Assembly (NCBI RefSeq): GCF_024628725.1
Contig: NZ_CP102409.1
Coordinates: 2,513,001 to 2,577,000 of the forward strand
From: Ruegeria sp. YS9
Lineage (GTDB): Bacteria; Pseudomonadota; Alphaproteobacteria; Rhodobacterales; Rhodobacteraceae
Direction: 5' to 3'
DNA length: 64,000 nucleotides
Under the pieces are notes generated by a model, which had not been told where the DNA came from, made no database searches, and saw only the letters and a program-made list of their open reading frames with translations. The position numbers were made by a program, and so were the translations under genes. Shown piece after piece: positions 1-19,060 of this stretch (position 1 is its first letter; each line of letters begins with the position of its first letter).

Positions 1-899
1 CCATGATGATCCTCTTGGTGTTTTAGAAATGCAGCATCAGGCGTGCGGCGCTGTGACCGCGCCTCGCCGAATGTTCGCTTGGCGTGGCTGAGACAGCGAC
101 GCGCGTGTTCTTCGAACCCCAATTCGGCCACGCGGCTTTGGTTGGGCAGTTCGATGGAATAGTCGACGGGTGGCATCCGTTCGATGATGCCGGTGAAATC
201 GATCCAACCTTCGCCAGGATAGAGCCGCGCATCGCGAGCCAGCTGGGTCATACCTTCGCGCGTGTCGGCGATGCCGGGCAAGCAATCGGAGATATGCAGG
301 AAGTGAAACAGGTCCGAGGGGACGTGCAACAGTTCGCCCAGATCCACACGGCTGAGGTGCAGATATAGCGTGTCGACCAGAATACCGCCATTCGGCTGAT
401 CGGAGGCGCGGACAATATCCAGCGCCTCATCCAGAGTGCGCAGGCGGGAGAAGCTCGGGAACTCCAGATCCACCGTCAGCCCGTAGGGCGCTGCCAGTTC
501 GCAGGTTTCAGAATAGACGTCGATCAGAAAATCACGATCATCGCGGGTATTGGTCCACGCGCTCATGATCATGCGTTTGGCGCCGAGTTCCCCTCCGATC
601 TCCAACGAGGGTTCAAAGCTGCGCGGATCGACATCTTCGGTGATGCGCGCAAGTTCGACATCAAGGACCTTCAAACCGGTAGTAGACAGAGCCGTTTTGG
701 TCGCCTGAACCTGGGTCCTGTCGATCGGGGATTGGGTGAATTCACCGGGCACATGCATCGGGATGAACCGGGGACTGACGGCATCGTAACCGGCCCGCGC
801 GGCGATATAGACCAGCTCGGGCGGCGTACAGCCAATCAGCGTCAGATGCGCCAAGGAATAGAGAGAGGGGCTTGTGCCAGCCTCTTCGGGTTTCACCAT
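1..899 (-). CDS. Sugar phosphate isomerase/epimerase family TIM-barrel protein (C-terminus outside window)
   Basis: The reading frame starts at ATG 899 and runs off the left edge without a stop, so about 299 residues are visible. It reads as an AP-endonuclease-2-like TIM barrel of the sugar phosphate isomerase/epimerase type, a fold that includes xylose-isomerase-like enzymes, inosose dehydratases and 3-dehydroshikimate dehydratases. The usual metal-site residues are visible: E146 (VDLEF), D176 (LVDT), H202 (LHISD) and E250 (YSIEL). It follows a Gfo/Idh gene on the same strand, but a strong hairpin and a palindromic operator lie between them, so it probably has its own promoter. Because the barrel of the fused protein at 5764-7650 looks inactive, this intact barrel may supply the isomerase or dehydratase step of the island. 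The substrate is not known. Confidence 0.85.
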   Translation of the reverse strand, partial: MVKPEEAGTSPSLYSLAHLTLIGCTPPELVYIAARAGYDAVSPRFIPMHVPGEFTQSPIDRTQVQATKTALSTTGLKVLDVELARITEDVDPRSFEPSLEIGGELGAKRMIMSAWTNTRDDRDFLIDVYSETCELAAPYGLTVDLEFPSFSRLRTLDEALDIVRASDQPNGGILVDTLYLHLSRVDLGELLHVPSDLFHFLHISDCLPGIADTREGMTQLARDARLYPGEGWIDFTGIIERMPPVDYSIELPNQSRVAELGFEEHARRCLSHAKRTFGEARSQRRTPDAAFLKHQEDHH

Positions 900-950
900 A
901 AACGACAGCTCCACGTGTCTGCGAATCTTAAATTCATCACATGTAGTAAA

Positions 951-1053: not shown

Positions 1054-2244
1054 TTAGAGAGTGACCCAGCCCCCTCCGGACTGGTGAGAGCGCACGGAGG
1101 CATCAATGAATCGGACACCGTCTGCGCCTTGATTGACACTGGGAAAAGCAAGCCAATCGGCCGGAATGGTAACGCCATCCCGACGCGCGGCTACGGCCAT
1201 GGCAAATTCCGTATAGAGGTTGGCCCAGGCTTCGATAATCCCTTCGGGGAAGCCGCGCGCGGTACGGATCAGACGTTCTGCGCCGGGGCCGATGCCATGC
1301 CCGTGACCTCGGCTTATGATATTATCCGGCTCACCAAACCGATTGAACTTCAGCTGCTCCGAGTTCTCCAAATCCCACTCGAGACCTCCTTCGCTCCCGA
1401 ATATGCGCAACCGCAACCCACCCCGATTTCCCGGTGCAAGGCGTGTCGCCAAAAGGGTTCCCGGAACCTCGTTTTGATAGCGGGTGAACATGAATGCTGT
1501 GTCTTCCAAAGGCTTTGGCGCGCCGCAGACATGAAACTCGGCCCGTAGGTCGGTCAAGGGCAGGCCCGAGACAAAACTGGCCAGATGCGCGGCATGGGTG
1601 CCGATATCGCCGACACAACTGGTCGGGCCAGAAATCTTTGGGTCCAGCCGCCACTTTACATGAGGCGCATCGGCCACATTTTCGGGCGTCATCCAGTCTT
1701 GCATAAACTCAACATGTATTTGGTTGATTTTACCGATGCCGCCTTCCGCCACGATTTGTTTGGCCTGACGGATTACTGGAAAACATGACATCGCATAGCC
1801 GACAGCAAAGATGTGTCCCGTGCGCGCGGTAATCTCCTCAAGCCCCTCGGCCTCGGCGACTTCGTTGGTCAGGGGCTTGTCGCACAGCACGTCAATACCC
1901 GCCTCCAGAAACGCCTTGGCCGCATCGAAATGAACGTGGTTCGGGGTGGTGATCATGACGGCATCTACGCCATCCGGGCGCGCTGCCTCGGCCTGAGCCA
2001 TCTCGTCGAAGGACGCATAACACCTGTCTGCCGGCAGGAACCACTCGGCCGCGCGCGCCTTGCTGCGAGCGGCATCTGAACTGAGCGCGCCTGCGGTGAC
2101 CTCCCACCGGTCGCTCATCCTCGCTGCCATCGCTTGCGTGACAGAGATACGTCCACCGCCGACGACGCCCAGCCTCAAACGGCGAGACAACCGGGGGAAA
2201 TGGCCGTCAAAGTTCAGGTCTTCGGGTAAAATTCTCTCAGCCAT
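1054..2244 (-). CDS. Gfo/Idh/MocA family NAD(P)-dependent oxidoreductase (1)
   Basis: 396 residues, full length for the family, which oxidises or reduces sugars and cyclitols with bound NAD(P). The N-terminal Rossmann motif is GVVGGGRIS (near residue 26), the EKP-type catalytic lysine is in CDKPL (near 140), and a D-x-x-x-H motif (GDIGTH) sits in the C-terminal domain. The ATG overlaps the stop of the cupin-like gene by 8 bp (AATGGCTGA), so the two are translationally coupled. It is the last gene of the operon that begins with the TRAP genes and is followed by a hairpin. The substrate cannot be read from sequence. A cyclitol, inosose or quinate-like compound fits the neighbours. Confidence 0.9.
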   Translation of the reverse strand: MAERILPEDLNFDGHFPRLSRRLRLGVVGGGRISVTQAMAARMSDRWEVTAGALSSDAARSKARAAEWFLPADRCYASFDEMAQAEAARPDGVDAVMITTPNHVHFDAAKAFLEAGIDVLCDKPLTNEVAEAEGLEEITARTGHIFAVGYAMSCFPVIRQAKQIVAEGGIGKINQIHVEFMQDWMTPENVADAPHVKWRLDPKISGPTSCVGDIGTHAAHLASFVSGLPLTDLRAEFHVCGAPKPLEDTAFMFTRYQNEVPGTLLATRLAPGNRGGLRLRIFGSEGGLEWDLENSEQLKFNRFGEPDNIISRGHGHGIGPGAERLIRTARGFPEGIIEAWANLYTEFAMAVAARRDGVTIPADWLAFPSVNQGADGVRFIDASVRSHQSGGGWVTL

Positions 2245-2911
2245 TCTGAACCTCCATGTCCGGGACCCGTGCGCCTTCCGGCAGCATTTCTACCGCCATG
2301 AAGATGCTGGGGGTAATCGTCTCGTATTGATGCCAGGGATAGTTGCCTTCAGCGTCATACATCGGCTTGTGCGTCGTGCCGGGGGCCATGAATTCTTCGA
2401 GGTAAAGGGTTGCAACGTCCCGTTCGCGGCATTGCTGCATTTTGCCAAAGCCTACGATTTGCGTATGCACTTCGCGAAACCCCGGTACCGGGCAGAACGG
2501 ATGATCCTTATGCAACCCGACATTCAATGGGACCGAACCGGAATGGTACATGGTCAGTCCAACGTTACCCACGAAGACCTTTGGCGACATGTAGTGGCTG
2601 ACACCGCGCAAACGCTCCTCTCGGCGAACATCAAAAGCAGATGGCCATGTATCTTTCACCCATGCGAACAACTCGTTGTCATCGGCATGGGCGTCGAAAC
2701 CGTGGACAATGACGGCACGTTCCACGCCGCTAAGCGTGCTGTCTTGCACGATCACAGAGGAAAGCGGCGCAATGGTCTGATCCTCGACAGAGAGATTTCG
2801 CCCCCCAAGGTTAAGGACGATGGCGCGACCCTCGATAGAAATTCTGCGCTCGTCAGTTATGTGCTGGACGCGAAAGAATGGCTGAGCAAAGTCGAGTGTC
2901 TCAATCGGCAT
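2237..2911 (-). CDS. Conserved hypothetical, cupin-like protein
   Basis: 224 residues from the ATG at 2911, which overlaps the upstream Gfo/Idh stop (CATGCCGATTGA) and is preferred over the ATG at 2935. I do not recognise a named family. The composition is beta-rich with many His and Glu residues (for example HKDHPF and MYHSG), as in a cupin-like or small-molecule-binding barrel, and there is no signal peptide or membrane segment. Its place between two Gfo/Idh dehydrogenases in a tightly overlapped operon implies a role in the same catabolic route, possibly as an isomerase, lactonase or hydrolase. That role is inference from position only. Confidence 0.75.
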   Translation of the reverse strand: MPIETLDFAQPFFRVQHITDERRISIEGRAIVLNLGGRNLSVEDQTIAPLSSVIVQDSTLSGVERAVIVHGFDAHADDNELFAWVKDTWPSAFDVRREERLRGVSHYMSPKVFVGNVGLTMYHSGSVPLNVGLHKDHPFCPVPGFREVHTQIVGFGKMQQCRERDVATLYLEEFMAPGTTHKPMYDAEGNYPWHQYETITPSIFMAVEMLPEGARVPDMEVQNG

Positions 2912-4091
2912 GAACCAATTCCTTCCTCTCATCATTAAGGAAATCGACCGGTAAAAGCTCCGGAGCCGCGCAACGGCTTTCTATCGTCTGATAGGCACCA
3001 AATTTCGGCGCCCGTTCAATCGCGTCCATGACCTCGAACACATGGTAGGCAACCGCTCCACTCGCGCGGGGTTGGCGTCCTTCTTGTGCCGCCAGAGCCA
3101 GGTCCAATAGGCCGAGGCCACGGCTGTCTTCGTTAAACCCATGTTTGTTTTCGACCACCTGCCAGTCTTCGCGACCGGTTGGACGAGGTTGATGAGCCCA
3201 GCGCGAGGTCTCCCGTGTCTTCAACCAGACATCTCCTTGAAAGATATTGGCCCCATGAACCGGGTCAGGATCAGGGATGCTGATGGTGCCGTTTTCACCA
3301 TAGATCTCGAACCGCGGCGTTTCGCTGTCCCAAACGTCGAAACTCATAGTCATTGACCCGATGGCACCGGACGAGAACTGCAGCAGGCTCAGGGAGTGCG
3401 TGTCGACCTCGACATTCATCCACTCTCCGTTGCGCGGACCGTTTTCGATCATCCGCTGGTCAAATGTCCGCCGCGCCATTCCGGCGACACGGTCAATTGG
3501 TCCAAGACAGCAGATCATCGCGGTCAGGTAGTATGGTCCAAGGTCCAGCAAAGGCCCACCACCCGCCTGATAGTAGAAGTCCGGGTTAGGATGGTGGCGC
3601 TCCGTCCCGTGGGTACCGACATGGGCAAAAACCCCTGTTGGTTTGCCAATGGTACCCTCGTCGATCAAGCGCCGAACGGTCTGCCAGCGACCGCCCAGAA
3701 ATGTGTCGGGTGCGCAACCGACCAGCAACCCCTTTTCAGAGGCCATGTGCAGGATCGCCTTGCCATCCGTTCGGTTCATGACCAGTGGCTTTTCGGAATA
3801 GACGTGTTTCCCCGCCTCCAGCGCGCGCAGGCTGATTTCGGCATGCGCCGCCGGTATTGTCAGATTCAGAACGCAGTCAATCGTCGGATCGTCAAACACT
3901 TCATCTGGCGTGCAGGCCTGGGCGACACCGTATTGATCCGCTTTGGCGCGGCTTTCCGAAGGATCAAGACTTGCACAAGCCACGACTTCGACGCTCGAAA
4001 ATTTGGATAGTGTCTTTAGGTAAATATCACTGATACGACCACAGCCAATAAGGCCGACCCGGAAGGATTTCGATGTCTCACGTGTCATCAT
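2901..4091 (-). CDS. Gfo/Idh/MocA family oxidoreductase (2)
   Basis: 396 residues from ATG 4091; a second ATG follows at 4088. The 4091 codon overlaps the end of the citryl-CoA-lyase-like gene (AATGATGACACGTGA), so the longer frame to 4148 is rejected. Rossmann motif GLIGCGRIS, catalytic-lysine motif YSEKPL, and a C-terminal substrate domain with LLDLGPYYL. It is clearly a different paralogue from the enzymes at 1054 and 10650. Cytoplasmic and NAD(P)-dependent. Two such dehydrogenases in one operon would allow successive oxidations of a polyol ring or an oxidation/reduction pair. Confidence 0.9.
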   Translation of the reverse strand: MMTRETSKSFRVGLIGCGRISDIYLKTLSKFSSVEVVACASLDPSESRAKADQYGVAQACTPDEVFDDPTIDCVLNLTIPAAHAEISLRALEAGKHVYSEKPLVMNRTDGKAILHMASEKGLLVGCAPDTFLGGRWQTVRRLIDEGTIGKPTGVFAHVGTHGTERHHPNPDFYYQAGGGPLLDLGPYYLTAMICCLGPIDRVAGMARRTFDQRMIENGPRNGEWMNVEVDTHSLSLLQFSSGAIGSMTMSFDVWDSETPRFEIYGENGTISIPDPDPVHGANIFQGDVWLKTRETSRWAHQPRPTGREDWQVVENKHGFNEDSRGLGLLDLALAAQEGRQPRASGAVAYHVFEVMDAIERAPKFGAYQTIESRCAAPELLPVDFLNDERKELVHAD

Positions 4092-4893
4092 TCCTGTCTT
4101 CGTAGAGGGGTAAGTAATTCGGGGGCATCGGCCCTTTGTTGCGGCCACCCTGGTTCATCTGTTCCCAAGCGTGGGCGAGTATTCCGACCGAGCGGGACAG
4201 GCAGAACAGCCCTCGTGACAAGGGCGCAGGAAAGCCAAGTTCGCAGAAGATCACAGCTGTCGCGCCGTCAATATTCATGGCAATTGGCCGACCGCCTCGT
4301 TGACGACCGAGTTCGGCTTGAACCTCTTCTCCGATATCGGCAAACCGGCCAGAAACTGTGCCTTCTGCCGCCGCATCACGAACAAGTTGCATCAATCGAG
4401 GTGCGCGTGGGTCGACAGGCTTGTGAAACCTGTGACCAAAGCCCGATACGATCTTGCCGTAGGTCTCGCGCCAGCTGTCCAAGCCATCCCGAACAGCGTC
4501 ATTCAGCGAAGCTCCCGCATCCATGCGGACTGCGGTATCATTGTACAGCTCTGCACACTGCTCTCCTGCCCCGCCGTGCACGTCGCCCAGCATGTTCACC
4601 GCAGTCGCCATCGCATTATTGAGACCTACCCCGCAGGTGGCAGCCATACGCGCAGCCGCGATTGAGGGAGCCTGTGGGCCGTGATCCACGCCTGCGACCA
4701 ATGCAGCTTCGAAAAGGCGCGCTTGCGCGTCGATGGGCAAGTCGCCCCGCACCATCAGCCAGATCATCTGCGGGAAAGATACGTTCCCGATCAGGTCCTC
4801 TATGGCGTTGCCGCGAAACGCGATCTGGCCGGGCTTCATGTCGATGATAGATGTGCGCCACCATTGGCGGATAGCTTGCTCGTCGTTTGTCAT
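4078..4893 (-). CDS. Citryl-CoA lyase / citrate synthase-like protein
   Basis: 271 residues, much shorter than housekeeping citrate synthase (about 430) and matching the short citryl-CoA lyase-like branch. The three catalytic positions can be read: H106 (DVHGGAGE), H154 in the family signature GFGHRFHKPVDPRA, and D209 (NIDGATA). The family makes or cleaves citryl-CoA-like thioesters. The gene overlaps aroE-like by 4 bp (ATGA) upstream and the next Gfo/Idh gene downstream. Such an enzyme is unexpected beside shikimate-type genes. It may act on a C-C cleavage product late in the pathway, or on a side chain of the substrate. The function is inferred. Confidence 0.85.
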   Translation of the reverse strand: MTNDEQAIRQWWRTSIIDMKPGQIAFRGNAIEDLIGNVSFPQMIWLMVRGDLPIDAQARLFEAALVAGVDHGPQAPSIAAARMAATCGVGLNNAMATAVNMLGDVHGGAGEQCAELYNDTAVRMDAGASLNDAVRDGLDSWRETYGKIVSGFGHRFHKPVDPRAPRLMQLVRDAAAEGTVSGRFADIGEEVQAELGRQRGGRPIAMNIDGATAVIFCELGFPAPLSRGLFCLSRSVGILAHAWEQMNQGGRNKGPMPPNYLPLYEDRNDDT

Positions 4894-5762
4894 ACCGTTG
4901 CACCTCTAAACTCGCGCATGCGCTGCTGACGAAGTGAATCGAAAACGTTTTGAAGACGACTGATTGAGGCGGTGCAGCCGGTGAAGATTTCAAAAGACGC
5001 TGCAGCCTGATGAACTGCCATTCCAGCACCATTCATCACTTTTAACCCAGTTGTGCTGGCGCTGCTCAGAAGGTGTGTCTCGAGCGGGAAATATACTATA
5101 TCTGCCACCCAAGCATCCGGCCGCAACAATGATGGATCAATTACCGACCCGGGGTACTTATCCATCCCGAGCGGTGTTGCATTGACCACTCCGTCCACAA
5201 ATTTGACCCGTTCCAACGAAATCGAGGGGGAACCCTGAAGCTTCGCACAAGGGCGCAAGACCTTTAGTCGACTGACCAGCGCCTGCGCTCGGTGGAAGTC
5301 AGGATCGATGATCTCCAGATCTCGAACACCTGAATCAAGCAAAGCCAAAGAGACTGCACTGCCCGCGCCACCAGCACCAAACATGAGAACCGTTTCAGTC
5401 TTCGATGATCCCAAAAAATCTCCGAAGGCACTGTGGAAACCTATGTAATCGGTGTTGTGGCCAACCATTCGGTCGTCACAAAAAACCACCGCGTTGACAG
5501 CTTGAAGCTCCTCAGCAGTCTTGGAAAGCTCATCGAGATGATCAATGACCGACGCTTTGTAGGGGTGTGTCACGTTGACCGCCGCACAGCCTAATTCAAC
5601 GGAATAATGCAGTAAATCAGCGACCGACATTCCACGAAATGGCTCTTTTGCAGTGTCGATCCTACCGTAGCTCAGATCGATGCCCTGCGCCCGGCTCTCC
5701 GCCTCGTGCATCTCAGGGGTCATGGAGCCAGAAATCCCTTGTCCGATTAGTGCGGCCTTCAT
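4890..5762 (-). CDS. Shikimate/quinate dehydrogenase (AroE family, probably NAD-dependent and catabolic)
   Basis: 290 residues with the AroE layout: substrate-binding GISGSMTPEMH (9-19), catalytic K69 in NVTHPYK, N90, D105 in GHNTDYIGF, dinucleotide loop GAGGAGSA (129-136) and the C-terminal GMAVHQAA. After the second Rossmann strand the sequence is IID (151-153) instead of the NRT-type motif that holds the NADP phosphate in biosynthetic AroE. This favours NAD and a catabolic direction. The start lies 1 bp after the fused dioxygenase-like gene. It would oxidise shikimate or quinate to the 3-dehydro compound. A duplicate biosynthetic AroE is less likely given the operon. Confidence 0.88.
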   Translation of the reverse strand: MKAALIGQGISGSMTPEMHEAESRAQGIDLSYGRIDTAKEPFRGMSVADLLHYSVELGCAAVNVTHPYKASVIDHLDELSKTAEELQAVNAVVFCDDRMVGHNTDYIGFHSAFGDFLGSSKTETVLMFGAGGAGSAVSLALLDSGVRDLEIIDPDFHRAQALVSRLKVLRPCAKLQGSPSISLERVKFVDGVVNATPLGMDKYPGSVIDPSLLRPDAWVADIVYFPLETHLLSSASTTGLKVMNGAGMAVHQAAASFEIFTGCTASISRLQNVFDSLRQQRMREFRGATV

Positions 5763-5763
5763 A

Positions 5764-7650
5764 TTAGGTTGTTCCTTCCGCCACGTGGTGTCGCGTTTGC
5801 GCCGCTAATCGAAACGCAGCGTTACGCGCGCCATAGCCGGCGTAAGCAGTTCGGCGCTCAACAATTTCAAAGAAAAAGCCGTTAAAAATGGGACGACTGT
5901 AGATCTGAAAGTACTCGGCACCCGCCGCCTGATCGTAGAGTATGTTATCCCTGCGCATTTGGGCGATCAGGTCTTCACTTAACCCGAATGTCGCTTGCAG
6001 ATCAGCGTAGTAGTTTTCTGGGATGGACAGGCTGGGAAAACCGGACTTCCGCAATTGGGCTGAGGTTTCAAATATGTCGTCCGACTGGAAGGCGATGTGC
6101 TGAACACCGGCACCAAAACCGTCTTCAAGGAATGAAGCCGCCAGTGTTCGACGCCCAACTGCACCATTCAGGTTTAAACGCACTTCGCCTTCGGGGCTTT
6201 CGATGGCTTGGCTTTGCACAACACCCAACGGGTCGGCAACGTTTACGATCGGGGATTTCGCCATCTCAAAAGTCGAGATGTAATAAAGCAGCCAGCTTTG
6301 CATCTCATCGTGACGCATTGTCTGCGCCAGATGGTCGATACGACGCAGACCGGCGGGCTGGGTCGCTTTGGTTTTCGCCACTGGCTCAAACTCGATGTCC
6401 CATACCCGATGCAGATCGGATTTCTCATCGATGAAATGGACGACATTGCCACCAACGCCCCGAATGGCCGGGATATCCAGTTCCCCTGTTCCCACCGGCT
6501 GTGAGAAATTCGGCGCGCCCAGCGCGGTCGCGCGCTGAACCGTCTGATCCGCATCTTTGACACGCAACCCCATGTCACAAACGGAGGGGCCGTGACCCAG
6601 GAACGCCGAATGGGCAAAACCTTCCTTTTCGGTATTCACAACAATGTTTATCGCGCCCTGCCGCCACAGCTCGACGGACTTGGTGACGTGTTTTCGCTCC
6701 ATTCGAAAACACATTGCAGACAGCATGTCTGCCAGCTGCGCGCCGCTTGTTTCGTCGGCTGTGAACTCGACAAACTCAAAGCCTGACGCATAGACGCGTT
6801 CCGGCAGATCCGGGATGCCGAAATCGGTTCCCGGCTCGGTCCTTGATACCTCATCCAGGAGGTTTACCAGCGACCTGTAGCTGTCCCGGGCCAGTGTTCG
6901 GCCACCGGGCTGTGGTGCCGCTTCGTTGACGCGCGCAATCGACCAAGGCCCCTTGTACCCGGCGCGGGACAACACCCGCACGAAGCCCGCAAGGTTCAGC
7001 GACCCAAGCCCTGGCAGAAGTCCAAAATGCCGTTTGAGCCGACGTATATCCATCTCAAGCCGGGGTGCATCGGACAGTTGCACATGAAACAGCCGTTCTC
7101 CGGGAATGTCCCGAAGGCGGGCGGGTTTGGAACCGTCGGCAAGCGAGAAGAATGAGTTCAAAGCCAACCCCAAATGAGGGCTGTCGATTGCTTCAACGAT
7201 GCCTAGCGCCCGCTCATCCGAGTGAATAAGGTTCGACCATGGCAAACCCATATAGGCCAGACGCAACCCCATCTCTTTCGCGATCTCGGTCGCTTCACCA
7301 AGATCTGCGATTACCTGTTCTTCGGTCGCGGCGACATCGACCTCAAAGGCAGACCCAATTAGCAGCAGATCCGTACCCAACTCGCTCATCAGATCGAGTT
7401 TGCGCTTCAGTCGATCAAAGGCGCGCTCACGTCCGGCATCGGGCTGGCCTTCAAGGTTATGGAAGGGTTGTAGCAGGCAAATCTTCAGGCCGAGATCCGA
7501 TGCAATCTCGCGGACTTGCGATGGCGGCCCGTCAAAAGCGGTCAGATCCGGTTCGTGCAATTCGACACCTTCGAACCCTGCGTCAGCGATAGCACTTAGT
7601 TTTTCGGCCAGATCACCGGGGATCGACGTTGTCGAAACCGAGAGGCACAT
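5764..7650 (-). CDS. QuiC1-like fusion: dehydroshikimate dehydratase-type TIM barrel + hydroxyphenylpyruvate dioxygenase-like domain
   Basis: 628 residues from ATG 7650, which overlaps the dctM stop (TAATG). The longer frame to 7749 lies inside dctM and is rejected. Residues 1-270 form a sugar-phosphate-isomerase-like barrel and about 285-610 form two vicinal-oxygen-chelate modules like 4-hydroxyphenylpyruvate dioxygenase, the architecture of QuiC1 from Pseudomonas. Aligned by eye with QuiC1 as I recall it, the barrel's active-site positions E134, D165, H168 and E239 are M134, N165, F168 and A239, and only Q191 is kept. The C-terminal half keeps the iron triad H440, H518 and E595. The canonical dehydratase step to protocatechuate is therefore doubtful, and the dioxygenase-like half may be the working part. 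Confidence 0.9.
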   Translation of the reverse strand: MCLSVSTTSIPGDLAEKLSAIADAGFEGVELHEPDLTAFDGPPSQVREIASDLGLKICLLQPFHNLEGQPDAGRERAFDRLKRKLDLMSELGTDLLLIGSAFEVDVAATEEQVIADLGEATEIAKEMGLRLAYMGLPWSNLIHSDERALGIVEAIDSPHLGLALNSFFSLADGSKPARLRDIPGERLFHVQLSDAPRLEMDIRRLKRHFGLLPGLGSLNLAGFVRVLSRAGYKGPWSIARVNEAAPQPGGRTLARDSYRSLVNLLDEVSRTEPGTDFGIPDLPERVYASGFEFVEFTADETSGAQLADMLSAMCFRMERKHVTKSVELWRQGAINIVVNTEKEGFAHSAFLGHGPSVCDMGLRVKDADQTVQRATALGAPNFSQPVGTGELDIPAIRGVGGNVVHFIDEKSDLHRVWDIEFEPVAKTKATQPAGLRRIDHLAQTMRHDEMQSWLLYYISTFEMAKSPIVNVADPLGVVQSQAIESPEGEVRLNLNGAVGRRTLAASFLEDGFGAGVQHIAFQSDDIFETSAQLRKSGFPSLSIPENYYADLQATFGLSEDLIAQMRRDNILYDQAAGAEYFQIYSRPIFNGFFFEIVERRTAYAGYGARNAAFRLAAQTRHHVAEGTT

Positions 7651-8945
7651 TATCCCTGATATCCAAACATACGCGGCAACCACAGGACCAGATCCGGCAT
7701 CAGCATCATTATCACCAGAGCGAAGATGAGAACCGCGAGGAAGGCCCAAATTTCCGAGATGATTTCGCGCAGCGGAATGTCCGTCACGGCGTTGATCACA
7801 AAGAGTAGAATGCCATAAGGCGGCGTGATCAGACCGATCATCGAGTTCACGACGACCAGCACCCCGAAATGCACCAGATCAATCCCAAGCGCTTCGCAGG
7901 TTGGAATGAACAGGGGCACGATCACCAGAATGATCGTTGTTGCGTCCAACACACAACCCAGCGCAAGGATCAGCAGGTTAACCAGGATCAGGAACACAAT
8001 CGGACTGACATCCGAACCCTCCAGCAAGGCCGAGATCGACTGTGGAATCTGTTCCTGAATGACGATGAAGTTCAGAATGAACGCGCCACCAATGACCACC
8101 CCGACGGCGGCGGAAGAGCGCGCGCTGTCGACGAACACTTGATAAAGGCCACGGAAGGTCAGTGCGCGGTAGAACAACGCTGCCAGTAGCAGGGCGTAGA
8201 ATGCAGCAACTGCGGCGGCCTCGGTCGGCGTAGTGACGCCTCCATATATACCGTACAGCAGGATCGCCGGCATCAGCAGCGCCGGGAACGCGTTGGCGGT
8301 TTTAGCCGGTAACTCGCGCAGCGGAACAGGTTCTTCCAATGCAAAGTTCCGCTTTCCGGCCAGATAATAGTTCATCGCCATCAAGACGATACCCATGATC
8401 AGGCCCGGCAGAATGCCAGCAAGGAACAGCGACCCGATAGACGCCTTTGAGACGAGCGCATACAGAACCATTGGGATCGAGGGCGGAATGATCGGGCCGA
8501 TCGTCGCCGACGCCGCAGTGATTGCGGCAGCATAACCTCGGCTGTAGCGGCCATCCTTGGTCATCATTTCAATGATGATCTTGCCGATCCCCGCAGCGTC
8601 AGCGACGGCAGAACCGGACATGCCGGAAAAGATCAGCGATGCCACCACGTTGACGTGCCCGAGGCCGCCTTTGAAACGACCGACAGCAGCGACACAGAAG
8701 TTCAGCAGTCGGTCGGTGATCGACCCCGCATTCATGATATTGGCGGCGACGATGAACAACGGTACGGCAAGCAGGATCGTGCTTTTGTAGAAGCCTTGCA
8801 GGATTTTTTCACCCGCCAGCGCGACGTCCAGGCCAGCGACACCCAGATACATCAGTGACGCTAAAAGGATGGAGTAGCCGATAGGTGTCCCGATGCCTGC
8901 CAGAACAAAGAGAGTCAGCAGGCAGGAAAGAAGTTCGAAACTCAT
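7650..8945 (-). CDS. dctM: TRAP transporter large permease (DctM type)
   Basis: 431 residues, about 12 hydrophobic segments, typical DctM length and motifs (GMSGSAVADAAGIG, ASATIGPIIPPS). It is the transporting subunit of a tripartite ATP-independent periplasmic system that uses the sodium or proton gradient. The start overlaps the small permease stop (ATGA, 4 bp). The stop overlaps the start of the QuiC1-like gene, directly coupling import to catabolism. Likely substrates are carboxylated rings or sugar acids such as quinate or shikimate, inferred from neighbours. Confidence 0.95.
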   Translation of the reverse strand: MSFELLSCLLTLFVLAGIGTPIGYSILLASLMYLGVAGLDVALAGEKILQGFYKSTILLAVPLFIVAANIMNAGSITDRLLNFCVAAVGRFKGGLGHVNVVASLIFSGMSGSAVADAAGIGKIIIEMMTKDGRYSRGYAAAITAASATIGPIIPPSIPMVLYALVSKASIGSLFLAGILPGLIMGIVLMAMNYYLAGKRNFALEEPVPLRELPAKTANAFPALLMPAILLYGIYGGVTTPTEAAAVAAFYALLLAALFYRALTFRGLYQVFVDSARSSAAVGVVIGGAFILNFIVIQEQIPQSISALLEGSDVSPIVFLILVNLLILALGCVLDATTIILVIVPLFIPTCEALGIDLVHFGVLVVVNSMIGLITPPYGILLFVINAVTDIPLREIISEIWAFLAVLIFALVIMMLMPDLVLWLPRMFGYQG

Positions 8946-9517
8946 TTGCTTGCGTCCTCGTCGTCTTCCACATCGACCCGGGGATGATCGTCGACCACGT
9001 TGAATCCCACGACCATTTCAAGTTCGGTTTTTGGAGGGCCGTTGCGCAGGATGTCGAAGAACAGCCAGCCATAGCGCGCAGCCACCACCAGCATGAACAC
9101 CGCGTAGATCGAAAACACGGTGCGCAGCGGTATCTTCTCGCCCGAGAACGGATTGCGGACCGTCGCGGTCTTGCGGATTTTCATCCAGTCGATGTAATCC
9201 CACGTCGGCAGGAAGCTGTAGAGCATGCCCACCACGATTGCCGCGGCCGCGAGCATTGCAAAAACCTGACGGACGCGACGGGGCACAGACAGGTAGATGA
9301 TGTCGAATTTCACGTGATCCCGTTCGCGCACGATGAAGGCGCAGCTGAAAAAGATCACCCAGACCCAAAGAATGCCGATCAATTCAAGCGTCCAACCTGC
9401 GGGGGTAAAGAAATACCGCAAGAGAATTTGCAGAAGGAAGATCAGGAAGATTGCCGCCAGCATCCCGCCGGCAATCGCTTCGGTCAGTCGGAAGAACCCC
9501 TTGATAAAGGCTTTCAT
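8942..9517 (-). CDS. dctQ: TRAP transporter small permease (DctQ type)
   Basis: 191 residues with four predicted membrane segments and the DctQ-type motif LQILLRYFFTPAGWTLEL near the N-terminus. It pairs with DctM in the inner membrane. The charged tail (VDDHPRVDVEDDEDASK) is longer than in minimal DctQ proteins. It lies 30 bp downstream of the binding-protein gene and overlaps dctM by 4 bp. Confidence 0.93.
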   Translation of the reverse strand: MKAFIKGFFRLTEAIAGGMLAAIFLIFLLQILLRYFFTPAGWTLELIGILWVWVIFFSCAFIVRERDHVKFDIIYLSVPRRVRQVFAMLAAAAIVVGMLYSFLPTWDYIDWMKIRKTATVRNPFSGEKIPLRTVFSIYAVFMLVVAARYGWLFFDILRNGPPKTELEMVVGFNVVDDHPRVDVEDDEDASK

Positions 9518-9547: not shown

Positions 9548-10558
9548 TCAGTTGCCCAGAGCGTTGATCTGATCCAGAACACCATCCGGCCAGGAACCCG
9601 CGAATTCGCTGTCCAGATACATAGACTGTACCTGATCGCGGAACGCTGCGAGATCGGGCTCGTAGATCTCCATCCCCTGCTCTTTCAGGAAGCTGACGAG
9701 ATCCTCTTCCTTCTGCAACTGTTTCTGACGGCCGGACTCGGCAGCTGCGTCAGCTGCTTCCTGAACCTTGGCCTGCTGTTCAGGGGTCAGGCTGTCCCAA
9801 ACCTCTTTGCCAATAGCGATGTAGTTCAGGTCGACTAGGTGCGATGTCAGAACGATCTGGTTGGTCACTTCATAGAACTTCGCGTCAACCACGGTCGGCA
9901 GCGGGTTGTCCTGACCGTCAACAGCGCCGGTCGACAGCGCGGTATAAACCTCTGAAAACGCCATTGGTGTCGGAGCAGCACCCAGAGCTTTACCCAGGAA
10001 CTGCCACGCATCTGTGCCCGGCATCCGCAGGTTCACACCCTCCAGATCAGCCGGAGTGCTGACGGTCAATTCATCCTTGGGTTGGCGCAGGTTCACCTGA
10101 CGACGGCCCAGATACATGACCGACAGCAGTTTGACGCCCAGTTCTTCTTCGGCCTTTTGCTTGAAGGCATCCATCAAGGGATCGTTGAAGACAGCCACCT
10201 GATGCGCGGCGTCCTGGTGGACATAGCCTGCTGTAAAGATCGAAAACTCGGGGAAGAACTGTGCCAGTTCCTGCGCCGAGGTGATCGACATTTCCAGGTT
10301 GCCCCGGCTGATGGCGTCCAACTCCGTACCTTGGGCGAAGATTGTCCCGTTATAGCTGGGCTCATACGCCGCAAATTCAGCGACCATGGGTGCGAAAACC
10401 TCGGCCATTGCGACCGAGCGCTGATCGGTCTCCGATCCTGATGTTGCGAGGCGAAGTTGAACTTTGTCTTCCGCCAGCGCACCACTTGTTGCGCTAAACA
10501 GAACACCGGTTGCGACCAGGGCTGATACAGCAGCCCGGCGGGTAAGTTTGGTAATCAC
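9548..10558 (-). CDS. dctP: TRAP transporter substrate-binding protein (DctP type)
   Basis: 336 residues with an N-terminal signal peptide (ITKLTRRAAVSALVATGVLF, cleavage near GALAED). The mature protein has the TRAP-P pattern, including LEGVNLRMPGTDAWQFLGKALGAAPTPMAFSEVYTAL split over residues about 170-205. The conserved Arg in NLRMPG normally binds a substrate carboxylate, so a carboxylated ligand is expected. It is the first gene of the operon running down to 1054. The palindromic operator at 10645-10659 sits 87 bp upstream of its ATG. Confidence 0.95.
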   Translation of the reverse strand: MITKLTRRAAVSALVATGVLFSATSGALAEDKVQLRLATSGSETDQRSVAMAEVFAPMVAEFAAYEPSYNGTIFAQGTELDAISRGNLEMSITSAQELAQFFPEFSIFTAGYVHQDAAHQVAVFNDPLMDAFKQKAEEELGVKLLSVMYLGRRQVNLRQPKDELTVSTPADLEGVNLRMPGTDAWQFLGKALGAAPTPMAFSEVYTALSTGAVDGQDNPLPTVVDAKFYEVTNQIVLTSHLVDLNYIAIGKEVWDSLTPEQQAKVQEAADAAAESGRQKQLQKEEDLVSFLKEQGMEIYEPDLAAFRDQVQSMYLDSEFAGSWPDGVLDQINALGN

Positions 10559-10644: not shown

Positions 10645-10659
10645 AAATATCAGATATTT
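10645..10659. promoter_or_regulatory. Palindromic operator, copy 2 (AAATATCAGATATTT)
   Basis: Perfect 7-bp-arm palindrome matching the site at 951-965 except for the central base. It overlaps the stop codon of the Gfo/Idh gene at 10650 and lies 87 bp upstream of dctP, so it is placed to control the TRAP/catabolic operon. Probable GntR/FCD regulator target by inference. Confidence 0.65.
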
Positions 10660-11741
10660 TTCATTACCTGCAATCTCTGTTGCTGCGTTTCCTGAAGGTT
10701 TCTTATCCTAACAGTCTCGCCAGTTCTGCAAGAATTCTGTATAGCTTCAATAACTTGAAGCGTTCTGAACCCTTCCCACCCAGACACAATCGGCACTGCT
10801 TCGTGCCGAGCTACTTCAACAAAGTGCCTGAGCTGATTGACCAGAGGGTCAGACGCACCCTTCTTCAGCGCGGTCGATGAAATAGGTGTCCACCAGTCCC
10901 TTTGCTCACTCTGGTAACTCCACAATCGAAGATCGGGAACGGACAACGAACCATGAGAGCCACCTATCATGTAGCTACTCTCAGTGGTCGACGGATAGAT
11001 TGGATATTCCTGAGACGTCATCTCCCAGCTCCATGGAGCAACGATGCTATCGGACACACTTATGGTCCCGATCGCCCCACTTTCAAACGTCAACAGCGCG
11101 CCGGCGACATCTTCGTTGTCGTAACCCCGCTGCGATGAAGCCGACTGAGCCTGAACGGTCATGACTTCTCCGGCCAGGTACCGCAGCAAATCCACATCGT
11201 GGACAAGATTGACCGAGATAGGCCCTGCACCGGGTTTCTTTCTCCAGGGCGCAGCATCAAAATACTCGTCTGGCTTATAGAACCAGCAATTCGCATGGAC
11301 AGCGCGCACATCTCCAATCTTCCCATCGACAACGGCTTCCTTAGCCGACCGGATCAGAGGATTGTGCCGACGATGATGTCCGACCATCAGTGGCACATTG
11401 GCCTTCTCCGCTGCTTGAACAAGCTCAAGTGCAGCGGTGGCTTCCACGGCGATCGGCTTTTCGACGAGAACGGGACAACCATGTCGAATACACGTGAGGC
11501 CTTGTTCAACATGAAGCGTGGTCGGGGTCGCAAGAACAGCTCCGTTCGGCGTCTGATTTGCAAACATTTCCTCAAGGGTCTCGTAACATGCGACCCCGTG
11601 CTCAACGGCGTAAGCACGACCTTCATCGCTGGGGTCGACCACCGCGACAAGATCAACATGGCGCAACGCTCGGATAGCGTCTGCGTGGCGGCGTCCAACA
11701 AGGCCAATGCCGACAATGGCAATGCGAAAGTTTCGAGACAC
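10650..11741 (-). CDS. Gfo/Idh/MocA family oxidoreductase (3)
   Basis: 363 residues from a GTG at 11741 preceded by GGAAGGAAG at good spacing. The ATG at 11774 has no such site and adds residues before the Rossmann motif, so GTG is preferred. Motifs: GIGLVGRRH, VEKPI with the catalytic Lys, and LVHDVDLLRYL with the catalytic His/Asp of the inositol-dehydrogenase-like branch. First minus-strand gene after the divergent GntR regulator. Its stop codon lies inside the operator of the TRAP operon, so it may be a separate transcription unit or the promoter-proximal gene of the same one. Confidence 0.9.
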   Translation of the reverse strand: MSRNFRIAIVGIGLVGRRHADAIRALRHVDLVAVVDPSDEGRAYAVEHGVACYETLEEMFANQTPNGAVLATPTTLHVEQGLTCIRHGCPVLVEKPIAVEATAALELVQAAEKANVPLMVGHHRRHNPLIRSAKEAVVDGKIGDVRAVHANCWFYKPDEYFDAAPWRKKPGAGPISVNLVHDVDLLRYLAGEVMTVQAQSASSQRGYDNEDVAGALLTFESGAIGTISVSDSIVAPWSWEMTSQEYPIYPSTTESSYMIGGSHGSLSVPDLRLWSYQSEQRDWWTPISSTALKKGASDPLVNQLRHFVEVARHEAVPIVSGWEGFRTLQVIEAIQNSCRTGETVRIRNLQETQQQRLQVMKNI

Positions 11742-11939
11742 TTTGCTTCCTTCCGGAGGGTCTGGAAGTCCCAAACCCTATGTTTGCGAACGGGCTGCAT
11801 TGCCCAACTTGGCCACGACCGTATTGGGGTTTTCGCGATTCCGCAATAATGTATGATATTTTTATTTTTACCATACACCTGATTGGATTGCTGATACCTC
11901 CGAAAAATGCTAATTGAACGAAGAAACTGATAATATCGG

Positions 11940-12602
11940 GTGAAACGCATGGCGAAACAGCCGTCTACGATAGGTGCAAGCACTTATCAGCGCATCAAGA
12001 GGGACATCATCTTCGGGGAATTGCAGCCCGGCTCCAAACTGAAGCTGGACGCCTTGAAGGAACGCTACTCGGCAAGCCTTTCGACACTTCGTGAAACGTT
12101 GAACAGGCTCGCCAGCGACGGATTTGTCGAAGCTCCCGAGCAACGGGGTTTCCTGGTCACGCCGGTTTCACGAGAAGACCTGACCGAGATATCAGAGCTG
12201 CGCGTCCTGTTGGAATGCCACGCATTGGAGTTGTCCATTGCGAATGGCGACACGGACTGGGAAGGCAACCTCGTTGCCGCACACCACAAGCTGCACCTGA
12301 TGGAACAGCAGCTTCTGAAGGGCGACGAATCCGAGAAAGAAACCTGGAAACGATATGATTGGGAGTTTCACCAAGCGATGATCGCGGCCTGCAACTCCAA
12401 TAACCTTCTGTCTCTGCACTCGATCATCTACGACAAGTACCTGCGGTACCAGATGCTCGTACTAACGTATCGCGGCGAAGAGGCCGTCAAGGAGCACAAG
12501 GGCATGTTCGATGCAGCACTGGCCAGAGACGCCGACACGGCCAAGAAACTGTTGGAAGATCACATCCGAAACGGTCTCGCACATACGCTGGAAGCTATGT
12601 AG
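11940..12602 (+). CDS. GntR family transcriptional regulator, FCD (FadR-type) subfamily
   Basis: 220 residues. N-terminal winged helix (about 10-75: TYQRIKRDIIFGELQPGSKL, then STLRETLNRLASDGFV) and a C-terminal all-helical FCD ligand domain with metal-site residues D and H (DWEFHQAMI, HKGMFDAALARD, DHI). The start could be the second ATG four codons in. It is transcribed away from the third Gfo/Idh gene and is the only regulator beside the catabolic island, so it probably senses an intermediate and binds the 15-bp palindromes at 951 and 10645. FCD ligands are usually carboxylates. Confidence 0.92.
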   Translation: MKRMAKQPSTIGASTYQRIKRDIIFGELQPGSKLKLDALKERYSASLSTLRETLNRLASDGFVEAPEQRGFLVTPVSREDLTEISELRVLLECHALELSIANGDTDWEGNLVAAHHKLHLMEQQLLKGDESEKETWKRYDWEFHQAMIAACNSNNLLSLHSIIYDKYLRYQMLVLTYRGEEAVKEHKGMFDAALARDADTAKKLLEDHIRNGLAHTLEAM

Positions 12603-12684: not shown

Positions 12685-13516
12685 GGGTCAGGACGCATTG
12701 ATTTCCCGCGCATGACGTGATTCACGGCCCCAAAAACGGAGCGGTGATATGAGCGACCTTTACTGGCTGAGCGATGAGCAGATGGCCAAGCTTACCCCTT
12801 TTTTCCCGAAGTCGCACGGCAAGCCACGTGTCGATGACAAGCGCGTCCTGAGTGGGATTATCTTCATCAATCGCAATGGTTTGCGCTGGCGTGACGCTCC
12901 TGCCGCCTATGGTCCGCACAAGACGCTCTACAGCCGCTGGAAGCGCTGGAGCGAGAAAGGCATCTTTGCGCGGATGATGGCGGGTCTGGCCGCCGAACAC
13001 GGCGAACAGAAGACCGTGATGATCGACGCGACCTACCTCAAGGCCCATCGAACAGCGACCAGTCTGGCCGCGAAAAAGGGGGGCGTGGGCGCCTGATCGG
13101 TCGAACCAAAGGCGGCATGAACACCAAACTGCACGCCATCTGCGATAGCCAAGGCCGCCCACTCAACCTGTTCGTCACCGCCGGTCAGGTCAGCGACTAC
13201 ATCGGTGCGCGGGCGTTGCTCAGCAGCCTGCCAAAGGTCGACTGGCTGCTCGGGGATCGCGGTTACGATGCCGATTGGTTCCGGGAAGCGTTGCAAGACA
13301 AAGGGATACGCGCCTGCATCCCTGGACGAAAGCAGCGCAAGAAAGCCGTCAGATACGATAAGCGTCGATACAAACGCCGAAACCGGATCGAGATCATGTT
13401 CGGCAGGCTGAAGGATTGGCGGCGCGTGGCAACCCGCTACGACCGTTGCCCAAAGGTCTTCCTCTCTGCCATCGCTCTGGCCGCGCTCGTCATCTACTGG
13501 TTATGAATCCTGACCC
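12685..13516 (+). mobile_element. IS5-family insertion sequence, copy 1 (832 bp)
   Basis: Bounded by inverted ends GGGTCAGGA and TCCTGACCC and flanked by TA on both sides (CTAG on both sides if the outer G/C is counted as target). The transposase is split over two frames. Copies with the same 832-bp length and the same inferred proteins are at 42551-43382 and 51496-52327. It sits between the GntR gene and the Na/Pi transporter and appears to interrupt no gene. Confidence 0.93.
12749..13506 (+). CDS. IS5-family transposase, copy 1, made by -1 frameshift
   Basis: ORF A (12749-13096, 115 residues) and the -1 frame that continues to 13506 join to about 252 residues. The join lies at the heptamer A-AAG-GGG at 13075-13081, a canonical -1 slippery site. 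The DDE triad is split: the first D is in TVMIDATYLKAH (ORF A), the second in GDRGYDADWF and the E in RNRIEIMFGRLK (frame B). N-terminal helix-turn-helix region with WLSDEQMAKLTPFFP. All three copies share the same two reading frames, so the element is probably still intact. Confidence 0.9.
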
Positions 13517-16854: not shown

Positions 16855-17744
16855 TGGTAATGGGTCCGCTTGTCGAGAATGGTGAACTTGACGCCCGCAA
16901 CCACGCCAAGCACGACAAGCACCAGGATGGTCATTGCCGCTGCGTGGGGCGCATCAAAGAAGGCAAAGGCCATTTCCCAGATGTAATAAAGGATAAGCTT
17001 GGAGGCGTCGTTGGGCCCGCCCTTGGTCAGGATGAACAAATGATCGATCAATTTCACAGAGTTGATCAACGCATTGACCATGATAAATAGCGTCGTCGGC
17101 ATCAACAACGGCAACACGATCCGGCGCGTGTAGGTCCAGCGGCTGGCGCCTTCAATGTCGGCAGCTTCCTTGAGGTCCTCAGGGATCGTCTGCAAGGCCG
17201 CCAGATAGAAGATCATGAAAAACCCAGCCTCTTTCCAGATCGTCACGATGATTACAGCCCACAGCGCAGTTTCAGGCTGTCCCAACCAGTTGATTGAGGG
17301 AAGGCCAAACAGACCGCCGATCTGGTCGAGCACACCCAATCCGGGAGTATAAAAAAACAGCCAAAGGTTTGCCGCTGCGATCATTGGCAGGACCGTGGGC
17401 GTGAAATAGGCGGTGCGTACAAACCCGCGAGCCGGGATCTTTGAGTTCGCCCAAAGCGCCATCGAAAGCGCAATTGCAATAGAAATAGGGATGGTCGCGC
17501 CCGCATAGATCAAGTTGTTCACAACAACTTTCCAAAAGGTTGGATCGGCAAACAGGTCGGCATAGTTCTCGCCGCCGACAAATTCGCTGGGGCGTCTTCT
17601 GGTTTCTCGGCTGAACAAGCTCGACCACAAGGTCGCAAGCGAAGGATAAAATGCAAACGTCGTCAGCAGAATTGCCGCTGGTGACAACAGGATCCAACCG
17701 TAGATGGCCTGTCGACGACGCTCGATGTTCACATGCTCTGCCAT
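16851..17744 (-). CDS. ABC transporter permease (MalF/UgpA type)
   Basis: 297 residues from ATG 17744 (MAEHVNIERRR); the frame extends to 17777, but that adds 11 residues without family support. Six membrane segments and EAA loop DLKEAADIEGASRWTYTRRIVLP. Partner of the MalG-type permease. The last residues of its frame overlap the next start (ATGA). Part of the deoR-led operon. Confidence 0.93.
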   Translation of the reverse strand: MAEHVNIERRRQAIYGWILLSPAAILLTTFAFYPSLATLWSSLFSRETRRRPSEFVGGENYADLFADPTFWKVVVNNLIYAGATIPISIAIALSMALWANSKIPARGFVRTAYFTPTVLPMIAAANLWLFFYTPGLGVLDQIGGLFGLPSINWLGQPETALWAVIIVTIWKEAGFFMIFYLAALQTIPEDLKEAADIEGASRWTYTRRIVLPLLMPTTLFIMVNALINSVKLIDHLFILTKGGPNDASKLILYYIWEMAFAFFDAPHAAAMTILVLVVLGVVAGVKFTILDKRTHYQ

Positions 17745-17803
17745 ATAGCGACCCTCAAGGTTGGGTGCGTCGGGCATCTCTGCCCGACGCCAGGGAGTTG
17801 AGG

Positions 17804-19060
17804 TTACTGGTAATCACGCAGCAGGCGCACAGCCGATGTCTGGGCTTCCCCAAGCGCGTCTTCAGCCGATTTTGTGCCGGTCAAAGCCGCCTGAATTGCG
17901 TTGTTCAAACCCTCACGCACGCGTGCGGTTTCAAAGGTCGAGAACTCAGCAACCGCGTTTTCCAGCTGGTTTCGGGCAACGAGAGCGGGTGGGAACTCTT
18001 CTGTATAGGATTTAAGCGCCTCGGTTTCATACGCCGCCGGAGACACGCCCATATAGCCGGTCGCGATGGACCACGCTGCCGCTTGCTCGGGCGAGGTCAT
18101 GAATTCGATCAGCTTCATGGCCGCCGCGCGCTCTTCGTCCGATGTCTCCTTGAAAACATAGAAGTTGCCGCCGCCGGTAGGCGAACCCAGCCGCACATTG
18201 GCCGGAAGCTCGGCGACGCCAAAGTCAAAACTGGCATTGTTCTTCACAGCCGTAAGGTTGCCGGTCGAATGCCACATCATCGAGGTCTGACCTTCAAGGA
18301 ACGCCTGCCGCAGGGTACCCCATTCAACGGTGCCAGTGGGCATGATGCCATGCTCCTGCGACAGCGACTGCCAGAATTCCAACGTATCGACAACGGTTTC
18401 GTCATCGAAATAGGTGGTCAGGCCGTCATCGGACATCACCTCCTTGCCGTTCTGGATCGCCAACGCCTGGAACATCCAATAGGGATAGCCTGTCGATGGG
18501 ATCATCAGGCCATAGGTGTCGTCGTTGGTCAGTGCCTTGCCCATGCTAATCAGCTCGTCCCAGGTCTTGGGCGGTGCCTCAGGGTCAAGACCTGCCGCAC
18601 GAAACTGGTCCTTGTTGTAATAGGCAACGATAGTTGAACGCTGGAACGGAATGCCCCAAGTTTTACCCTCGATCCGGCCATTGGCCATCAATGCAGGATA
18701 AAAGCTCTCTAGCCAGTCCGGGTTAACCCCGTCGATATCTTCGTAGGCCACGATCAGATCCTGCTCGATCAGATCATAGGCATCGATTGAGAACATCACC
18801 GCCAGCTGAGCCGGTTCACCCGATGCAAGTGCGGACAAAGCACGAACACGCGTGTCGTCATAGTTGCCTGAATAGATCGCGTTGACCTTGATGTCAGGGT
18901 TGGCGGCTTCAAAATCGGCAACGATGCCATCCACTACCTCGGTCAGCGCGCCGCCAACCGCGATAGGATAATACATTGTTAGTTCCGTCTCAGCCGCCGC
19001 CGCCGACGTCAGCGCGGTGGCCGAGACGGCAGCCAAACTTATCTTCTTAATAACGTTCAT
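17804..19060 (-). CDS. ABC transporter substrate-binding protein (UgpB-like)
   Basis: 418 residues. Signal peptide MNVIKKISLAAVSATALTSA with cleavage near AAAAET. The start is supported by GGGAGG six bases before ATG. The mature protein looks like the sn-glycerol-3-phosphate binding protein UgpB (ELTMYYPIAVGGALTEVVDGIVADFEAANP split early, later PTGGGNFYVFKETSDEERAAA and a tail with YPDTF-like residues lacking). Periplasmic. Specificity for glycerophospho-compounds is inferred from the UgpB-like start of the mature chain and the phosphoesterase neighbours; other phosphorylated polyols are possible. Confidence 0.9.
   Translation of the reverse strand: MNVIKKISLAAVSATALTSAAAAETELTMYYPIAVGGALTEVVDGIVADFEAANPDIKVNAIYSGNYDDTRVRALSALASGEPAQLAVMFSIDAYDLIEQDLIVAYEDIDGVNPDWLESFYPALMANGRIEGKTWGIPFQRSTIVAYYNKDQFRAAGLDPEAPPKTWDELISMGKALTNDDTYGLMIPSTGYPYWMFQALAIQNGKEVMSDDGLTTYFDDETVVDTLEFWQSLSQEHGIMPTGTVEWGTLRQAFLEGQTSMMWHSTGNLTAVKNNASFDFGVAELPANVRLGSPTGGGNFYVFKETSDEERAAAMKLIEFMTSPEQAAAWSIATGYMGVSPAAYETEALKSYTEEFPPALVARNQLENAVAEFSTFETARVREGLNNAIQAALTGTKSAEDALGEAQTSAVRLLRDYQ

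Follow-up and report, generated by a model that had tools for sequence, protein, structure and literature searches.

A QuiC1-type fusion protein of Ruegeria sp. YS9 whose barrel has lost the dehydratase site, and the distinct gene block that accompanies its family

The best-described relatives of the protein considered here are the QuiC1/QsuB fusions, in which a triose-phosphate isomerase (TIM) barrel is joined to a half resembling 4-hydroxyphenylpyruvate dioxygenase (HPPD). The parts of PMC7442255 on which we draw list Arg64, Leu97, Glu134, Leu136, Asp165, His168, Gln191, Ser206, Arg210, and Glu239 as the QuiC1/QsuB active site and describe the role of the HPPD-like half in QuiC1-type enzymes as still unknown. 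We analyzed a window of 64,000 nucleotides from Ruegeria sp. YS9 (contig NZ_CP102409.1, positions 2,513,001 to 2,577,000), which contains a fusion gene of this architecture, P0001 (5764..7650, minus strand, 628 aa). Its open reading frame (ORF), which reads from 7650 down to 5764, is genuine. Judged by its residues, P0001 is closest in kind to the QuiC1/QsuB fusions and is a variant predicted to lack their dehydratase activity. Compared with QuiC1/QsuB (PDB 5hmq and the same parts of PMC7442255), it is altered at E134, D165, H168, E239, R64, S206, and R210, and its family differs in the inverted conservation of the two halves and in the gene block around it.

The barrel of P0001 is xylose-isomerase-like and spans residues 1-262 (6865..7650, minus strand), with M134, N165, F168, and A239 in place of the QuiC1 residues and only Q191 retained, whereas the HPPD-like half (residues 288-612; 5815..6789, minus strand) has the iron ligands H440, H518, and E595 together with S480, N495, Q517, and Q582. 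The initial annotation had claimed the same losses in the barrel and the same retention of Q191 and of the three iron ligands, and this was borne out by the residue check and by the alignment with QuiC1 of Pseudomonas putida, a comparison proposed at the time: the alignment is ungapped around the site and places E/D/H/Q/E opposite M/N/F/Q/A. The site of E134, D165, H168, Q191, and E239 named in that annotation likewise agrees with the published list cited above. Positions 64, 206, and 210 are H, K, and G, where QuiC1 has R, S, and R. P0001 has the fold of the PF01261 barrel and passes its Pfam cut-off; it scores 531.1 bits against NF042435 (two-domain 3-dehydroshikimate dehydratase), below the curated cut-off of 1200, and 206.8 bits against TIGR01263 (HPPD), below the cut-off of 277. 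One could suppose instead that P0001 is a normal QuiC1 and that an alignment error gave a false picture of its site. This idea could draw on two listed relatives, P0013 and P0096, named 3-dehydroshikimate dehydratase in their sources, but it already fails at the sequence level and we consider it extremely improbable. Listed family members are annotated, for example, as 3-dehydroshikimate dehydratase or 4-hydroxyphenylpyruvate dioxygenase, and their residues and the curated cut-offs fit neither name; the family flags misannotation in databases.

The loss of site residues is a family trait, beyond chance, and the claim that the barrel has lost its dehydroshikimate-dehydratase site holds across the whole family. 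We compared 121 proteins (the dead-barrel set: the query and the best 120 of 1713 matches) with 120 intact relatives (P0122-P0241, the best 120 of 8000 matches around one intact relative). Position 134 is L, I, M, or V in 121/121 dead-barrel proteins and E in 120/120 intact ones; position 165 is N in 120/121 versus D in 120/120; position 168 is F, L, or Y in 121/121 versus H in 120/120; and position 239 is A, G, S, D, or P versus E in 119/120. The other positions are less strict, with R64 retained in 8/121, S206 in 6/121, and R210 in 3/121 dead-barrel proteins. The dead-barrel set also has conserved barrel residues of its own: position 189 is H in 121/121 versus F in 120/120 intact proteins, and W138, Q191, and D194 are each present in 121/121 and K206 in 107/121. 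In a tree of 64 selected fusion proteins, 44 of them dead-barrel, all dead-barrel proteins fall to the same side of a 100/100 branch; the long rows QuiC1, L022, and L130 are unsure in place. The tree is rooted at its midpoint, for drawing only, and the direction of change therefore rests on the intact site in QuiC1 and other relatives.

Constraint on the two halves is inverted between the sets: the barrel is the less conserved half in dead-barrel proteins and the more conserved half in intact relatives. For the 119 dead-barrel proteins with a length of 600 aa or more, pairwise identity averages 0.580 in the barrel and 0.741 in the HPPD-like half, and the barrel has the lower value in 7008/7021 pairs. 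The corresponding averages for the 120 intact proteins are 0.841 and 0.681, with the barrel below the other half in 0/7140 pairs. Since the pairs are not independent, these counts are descriptive. Columns conserved to at least 95% number 53/262 in dead-barrel versus 175/262 in intact barrels, and 153/325 versus 114/325 in the C-terminal half. The ratio of nonsynonymous to synonymous substitution rates (dN/dS) of the P0001 gene against eight close relatives (L003-L009, L011) is 0.054-0.097 for the barrel and 0.019-0.049 for the C-terminal half, and against L010, with saturating dS, 0.095 and 0.048. For the other seven of the 16 relatives dS is saturated. Six of these yield no ratio for the C half, and four of the six yield none for either half; the barrel values that remain are 0.092 (L012) and 0.211 (L016), and the one C-half value is 0.077 (L021). 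The barrel is thus under purifying selection, less strictly than the C-terminal half, and its functionless decay is ruled out by dN/dS.

Twelve of the 44 dead-barrel tree rows have a shrunken barrel, of 215-247 residues against the usual length of about 262. These proteins form two groups, one of P0290, P0293, P0297, L023, and L127 and another of P0242, P0243, P0244, P0245, P0246, P0248, and P0249; for the second, the barrel domain is absent from the database Pfam listing.

The HPPD-like half, by comparison, is kept. Across the 121 dead-barrel proteins, the iron ligands are present in 121 (H440), 120 (H518), and 120 (E595), and in the 44 dead-barrel tree rows H440, S480, N495, Q517, Q582, and E595 are invariant and H518 is found in 43. 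P0245 has Gln at the second iron-ligand position, 518, and is unique among the 44 in this. S480, N495, Q517, and Q582 align with Ser267, Asn282, Gln307, and Gln379 of HPPD in Arabidopsis numbering, which is also used for Gln293 and Phe424 below. QuiC1 of P. putida has His at both 517 and 582. Like HPPD, P0001 has His, His, and Glu as iron ligands; unlike HPPD (PDB 1cjx), it has Ala611 in place of the aromatic-substrate residue Phe424 and no Gln at the place of Gln293, with a gap nearby. Ala occupies position 611 in 121/121 dead-barrel proteins, and in the tree rows of the second shrunken group the residue is Ser. No second QuiC1-type fusion was found in the Ruegeria genome; its other match is a separate HPPD-like gene that it carries besides P0001.

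The dead-barrel gene also keeps different company. We scored gene content in 77 stretches (37 dead-barrel, 12 with an intact E/D/H/Q/E site, and 28 with neither), drawn from 24 of 80 loci (L003-L026), 12 chosen loci, 40 of 68 genomes with a match to the solute-binding protein DctP, and the window, with 56 loci whose match covered the HPPD half and no more than part of the barrel, the distant TIM2 loci L132 and L133, and the short loci L083-L101 and L134-L147 set aside. Four genes separate the types: a citryl-CoA-lyase-like gene (CitLy) and a standalone TIM barrel (TIM2) each occur in 36/37 dead-barrel loci, an acylating aldehyde dehydrogenase (ALDH) in 32/37, and a thiamine diphosphate (ThDP) enzyme gene in 31/37, against 0/12 intact loci in every case, as assessed with Fisher tests that carry no correction for kinship. 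L026 and L205 are the same contig, leaving 36 distinct dead-barrel loci. Among the loci with missing block genes, L010 is a 3.9 kb contig, and L018, L203, L206, L210, and the window lie at contig, stretch, or window ends; the genes missing from the window were found in L102. Common to both types are a GntR regulator (33/37 dead-barrel, 10/12 intact) and the dehydrogenase gene IdhC (35/37 and 9/12).

A tree of DctM, the large permease of the adjoining tripartite ATP-independent periplasmic (TRAP) transporter, mixes the two classes. It comprises 62 rows (28 dead-barrel, 9 intact), near-identical or duplicate rows (L003, L005-L009, L011, L025, L026) and six stretches in which no DctM passed the set limits lying outside it. 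The class labels require 6 changes, at least 4 of them forced by starred branches, compared with a mean of 8.2 after shuffling; for example, intact L103 falls within a dead-barrel group (97/85) and intact L207 stands beside dead-barrel L206 (100/96). A single transporter lineage has therefore been coupled with either fusion type, and it is mainly for this reason that we propose a shared substrate class for both types and interpret CitLy, TIM2, ALDH, and ThDP, together with the dead-barrel protein, as taking the place of the dehydratase step.

A different substrate is conceivable: instead of quinate or shikimate, the operon could serve to break down a sugar acid, for example a 3-deoxy-2-ulosonic acid such as 3-deoxy-D-manno-oct-2-ulosonic acid (KDO). 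The DctP of the window (9548..10558, minus strand) is 76% identical (234/307) to PDB 4pf6, whose ligand is presumably KDO; a predicted bicupin in the operon resembles aldos-2-ulose dehydratase; and three Gfo/Idh/MocA dehydrogenases are present. However, the 12 closest 4pf6 relatives examined (L179-L190, 83-88% identical) adjoin none of the fusion gene (QUI), CitLy, and TIM2, and the transporter lineages close to that of the window are shared with intact QuiC1 genes, so that we regard the sugar-acid substrate as unlikely. KDO as the evident substrate was rejected, since the nearest 4pf6 relatives stand in another setting and the 4pf6 ligand is not simply transferable. Ten of these 12 loci lie near a distant DapA-like match, a setting separate from the QuiC1-type operon.

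Our preferred interpretation, held with modest confidence, is that P0001 combines a scaffold barrel with a working oxygenase half in a branch of quinate/shikimate-type catabolism that does not pass through protocatechuate. The TRAP transporter, of a kind that elsewhere feeds intact QuiC1, would import a quinate/shikimate-type acid. The barrel, given its residue loss, weaker conservation, and shrinkage, would now serve as a scaffold. Catalysis would fall to the HPPD-like half, which is probably an Fe(II)-dependent oxygenase acting on a non-aromatic alpha-keto acid; this function is proposed from the alignment, in which the iron ligands and the Ser/Asn/Gln residues lining the HPPD pocket are kept and the aromatic clamp Phe is lost. 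The block of TIM2, the ThDP enzyme, ALDH, and CitLy, whose swap for the intact type is observed, would replace the aromatizing step to protocatechuate. The initial annotation had likewise proposed the dioxygenase-like half as the working enzyme; the greater constraint on that half and a gene set with no recognizable protocatechuate step favor this part of the proposal, whereas the dioxygenase activity and its substrate are still putative. A natural family with a dead dehydratase half and a conserved HPPD-like half offers a clean place to learn the role of the latter, and the gene block predicts a protocatechuate-bypassing route with named enzymes.

Instead of a scaffold, the barrel could be neofunctionalized, with N165, H189, Q191, W138, D194, and K206 forming a new metal-free site of an isomerase or lyase and the two halves acting in sequence. 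The family-wide conservation of these residues and the low dN/dS of the barrel speak for it. Against it, sub-clades lose parts of the barrel, and Q191 has given way to A, S, or T in L023, L127, L209, L212, and L214, yet the same gene block adjoins; moreover, a separate barrel with E/D/H/E at its metal-site columns, TIM2, accompanies the block in 37/39 loci (the exceptions are L210, which is cut, and L131, in which Q replaces H). We consider a new barrel site a minority possibility. Of the earlier alternative that the barrel is a pseudoenzyme or has a new activity, the site loss underlying both stands; being under purifying selection and having conserved residues of its own, the barrel may have a new activity.

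Several observations weigh against the combination of scaffold barrel and oxygenase half. The barrel dN/dS of 0.05-0.10 across nine relatives means that the barrel is maintained, and with H189 and N165 conserved, it may therefore have acquired a new activity. Lone site residues recur (D165 in P0297, H168 in L127 and L214, D239 in 4/121), although never the full set, and the D165 and H168 cases sit in shrunken barrels with uncertain alignment. The intact relatives equally keep H/H/E (120/120 each), N495, Q517, S480, and mostly Q582 (118/120); iron-ligand retention is therefore not peculiar to the dead-barrel family. In QsuB, according to PMC7442255, the HPPD-like half showed no activity on protocatechuate and a role in oligomerization has been proposed. 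The class labels on the DctM tree are still somewhat clustered, only 10/500 shuffles being as low. The gene block can also be divided: in L221 (genome G312), a dead-barrel locus additional to the 37 counted above, the fusion gene and CitLy are adjacent, while TIM2, ALDH, and ThDP lie on another contig (L128). Finally, an alphaproteobacterial genome of 1.9 Mb (G259) has at L131 (G259:C1:281500-301000) an operon complete except for the fusion gene, with GntR, IdhC, TRAP, CitLy, IdhB, the 232 aa gene, IdhA, TIM2, ALDH, and ThDP, and no match to the fusion gene was found anywhere in this genome, which is 94% complete. The fusion step is therefore not indispensable everywhere, and given G259 it could be accessory, could have been replaced, or could be linked to a single substrate. 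As a separate observation on G312, the fusion gene and CitLy of L221 stand with a transporter, and the TIM2-ALDH-ThDP genes of L128 adjoin an HpaI-like aldolase gene.

The G259 operon and the Gln at position 518 of P0245 would also suit a view in which neither half is catalytic and P0001 serves the pathway as a regulatory or assembly factor. The strongly conserved columns of the C-terminal half, however, include every ligand of the HPPD set, whose retention would not be required of a pure scaffold, and we hold this view to be quite improbable.

The capacity for protocatechuate cleavage bears on the scaffold-and-oxygenase reading in both directions. No gene of family PF00775 was found in the Ruegeria genome, in a search whose four positive controls worked, and 7/30 dead-barrel genomes have no PF00775 match in a survey of 36 genomes (30 dead-barrel, 6 intact), all with their site class checked. 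On the opposing side, adjacent PF00775 pairs, which we read as pcaGH, occur in 10 of the 30 dead-barrel genomes (Ruegeria sp. YS9 being among the 30) versus 5 of the 6 intact ones, and the Ruegeria genome has one LigB-family gene, which means that another route of protocatechuate cleavage is possible there. The lack of protocatechuate ring cleavage was thus dropped as a hallmark of the dead-barrel type, the difference in PF00775 pairs being a trend only.

For the operon as a whole, we sketch a non-aromatic route that would lead from quinate/dehydroshikimate-type acids to citryl-CoA, derived from carbon bookkeeping and enzyme families; we offer it tentatively and doubt that it is right as drawn. 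IdhC and the AroE-like enzyme would oxidize ring hydroxyls, TIM2 would isomerize, and the ThDP enzyme would open the ring in the form of a 1,2-dione. Using O2, the HPPD-like half would then shorten the alpha-keto-acid arm by one carbon to give a citrate semialdehyde, which the acylating aldehyde dehydrogenase would convert to citryl-CoA and CitLy would cleave to acetyl-CoA and oxaloacetate. The skeleton is plausible because quinate minus C4 equals citrate, and the QuiC1 barrel would be superfluous because the substrate is no longer aromatized. The gene set may encode a previously undescribed pathway for the breakdown of ring-shaped acids; in the open-licence literature we found no paper on a site-less QuiC1-type protein or on this operon, which is a weak negative.

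The P0001 gene belongs to a 13-gene operon that extends past the window edge, and all of the operon genes given window coordinates below lie on the minus strand. Downstream, a shikimate-dehydrogenase-like gene, an AroE paralogue (4890..5762), scores 310.2 bits against NF009201, above the cut-off of 235. It is optional, occurring in 17/37 dead-barrel loci; its place is between the fusion gene and CitLy, L003-L007 carry it at 97-99% identity, and it was not found in L008, L009, L011, and L025. CitLy (4078..4893) scores 434.5 bits against NF004864 (cut-off 261) and matches citryl-CoA lyase (PDB 6hxp, E 3.3e-42) over residues 10-247, with HGGA, GxGHR, and NxDGA stretches in common; cleavage of citryl-CoA is predicted from this family match. 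Unlike citryl-CoA lyase systems, the CitLy block has an acylating aldehyde dehydrogenase, and no citryl-CoA synthetase is among the families identified in it.

The Gfo/Idh/MocA dehydrogenases IdhB (2901..4085) and IdhA (1054..2244) flank the gene for the predicted bicupin of 232 aa (2237..2935), which has no Pfam or NCBIfam match and is nearest to aldos-2-ulose dehydratase. These three genes occur in 25/37 dead-barrel and 2/12 intact loci; in L199 and L211 they stand beside an intact QuiC1 gene, so the module is not tied to the dead-barrel block. TIM2 (1..914) is cut by the window edge, and its whole gene is found in L102 at 16985-17914. The ThDP neighbor (TPP) is a full-length ThDP match whose best matches are acetolactate synthases and BbmA, with cyclohexane-1,2-dione hydrolase (2pgn) among the matches at E 3.3e-50; two orthologues scanned score below the cut-off of every NCBIfam family shown.

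Upstream of the fusion gene, DctM (7650..8945; TIGR00786, 397.8 bits) is followed by DctQ (8942..9517), the putative TRAP small permease, named from its position and size, then by DctP, and by IdhC (10650..11774), the first gene of the operon and a Gfo/Idh/MocA dehydrogenase. A divergent GntR/FCD regulator lies at 11940..12602 on the plus strand. Just outside the operon, an ORF at 13117-13506 reads like the end of an IS5-type transposase, a name given by reading, with no search made.
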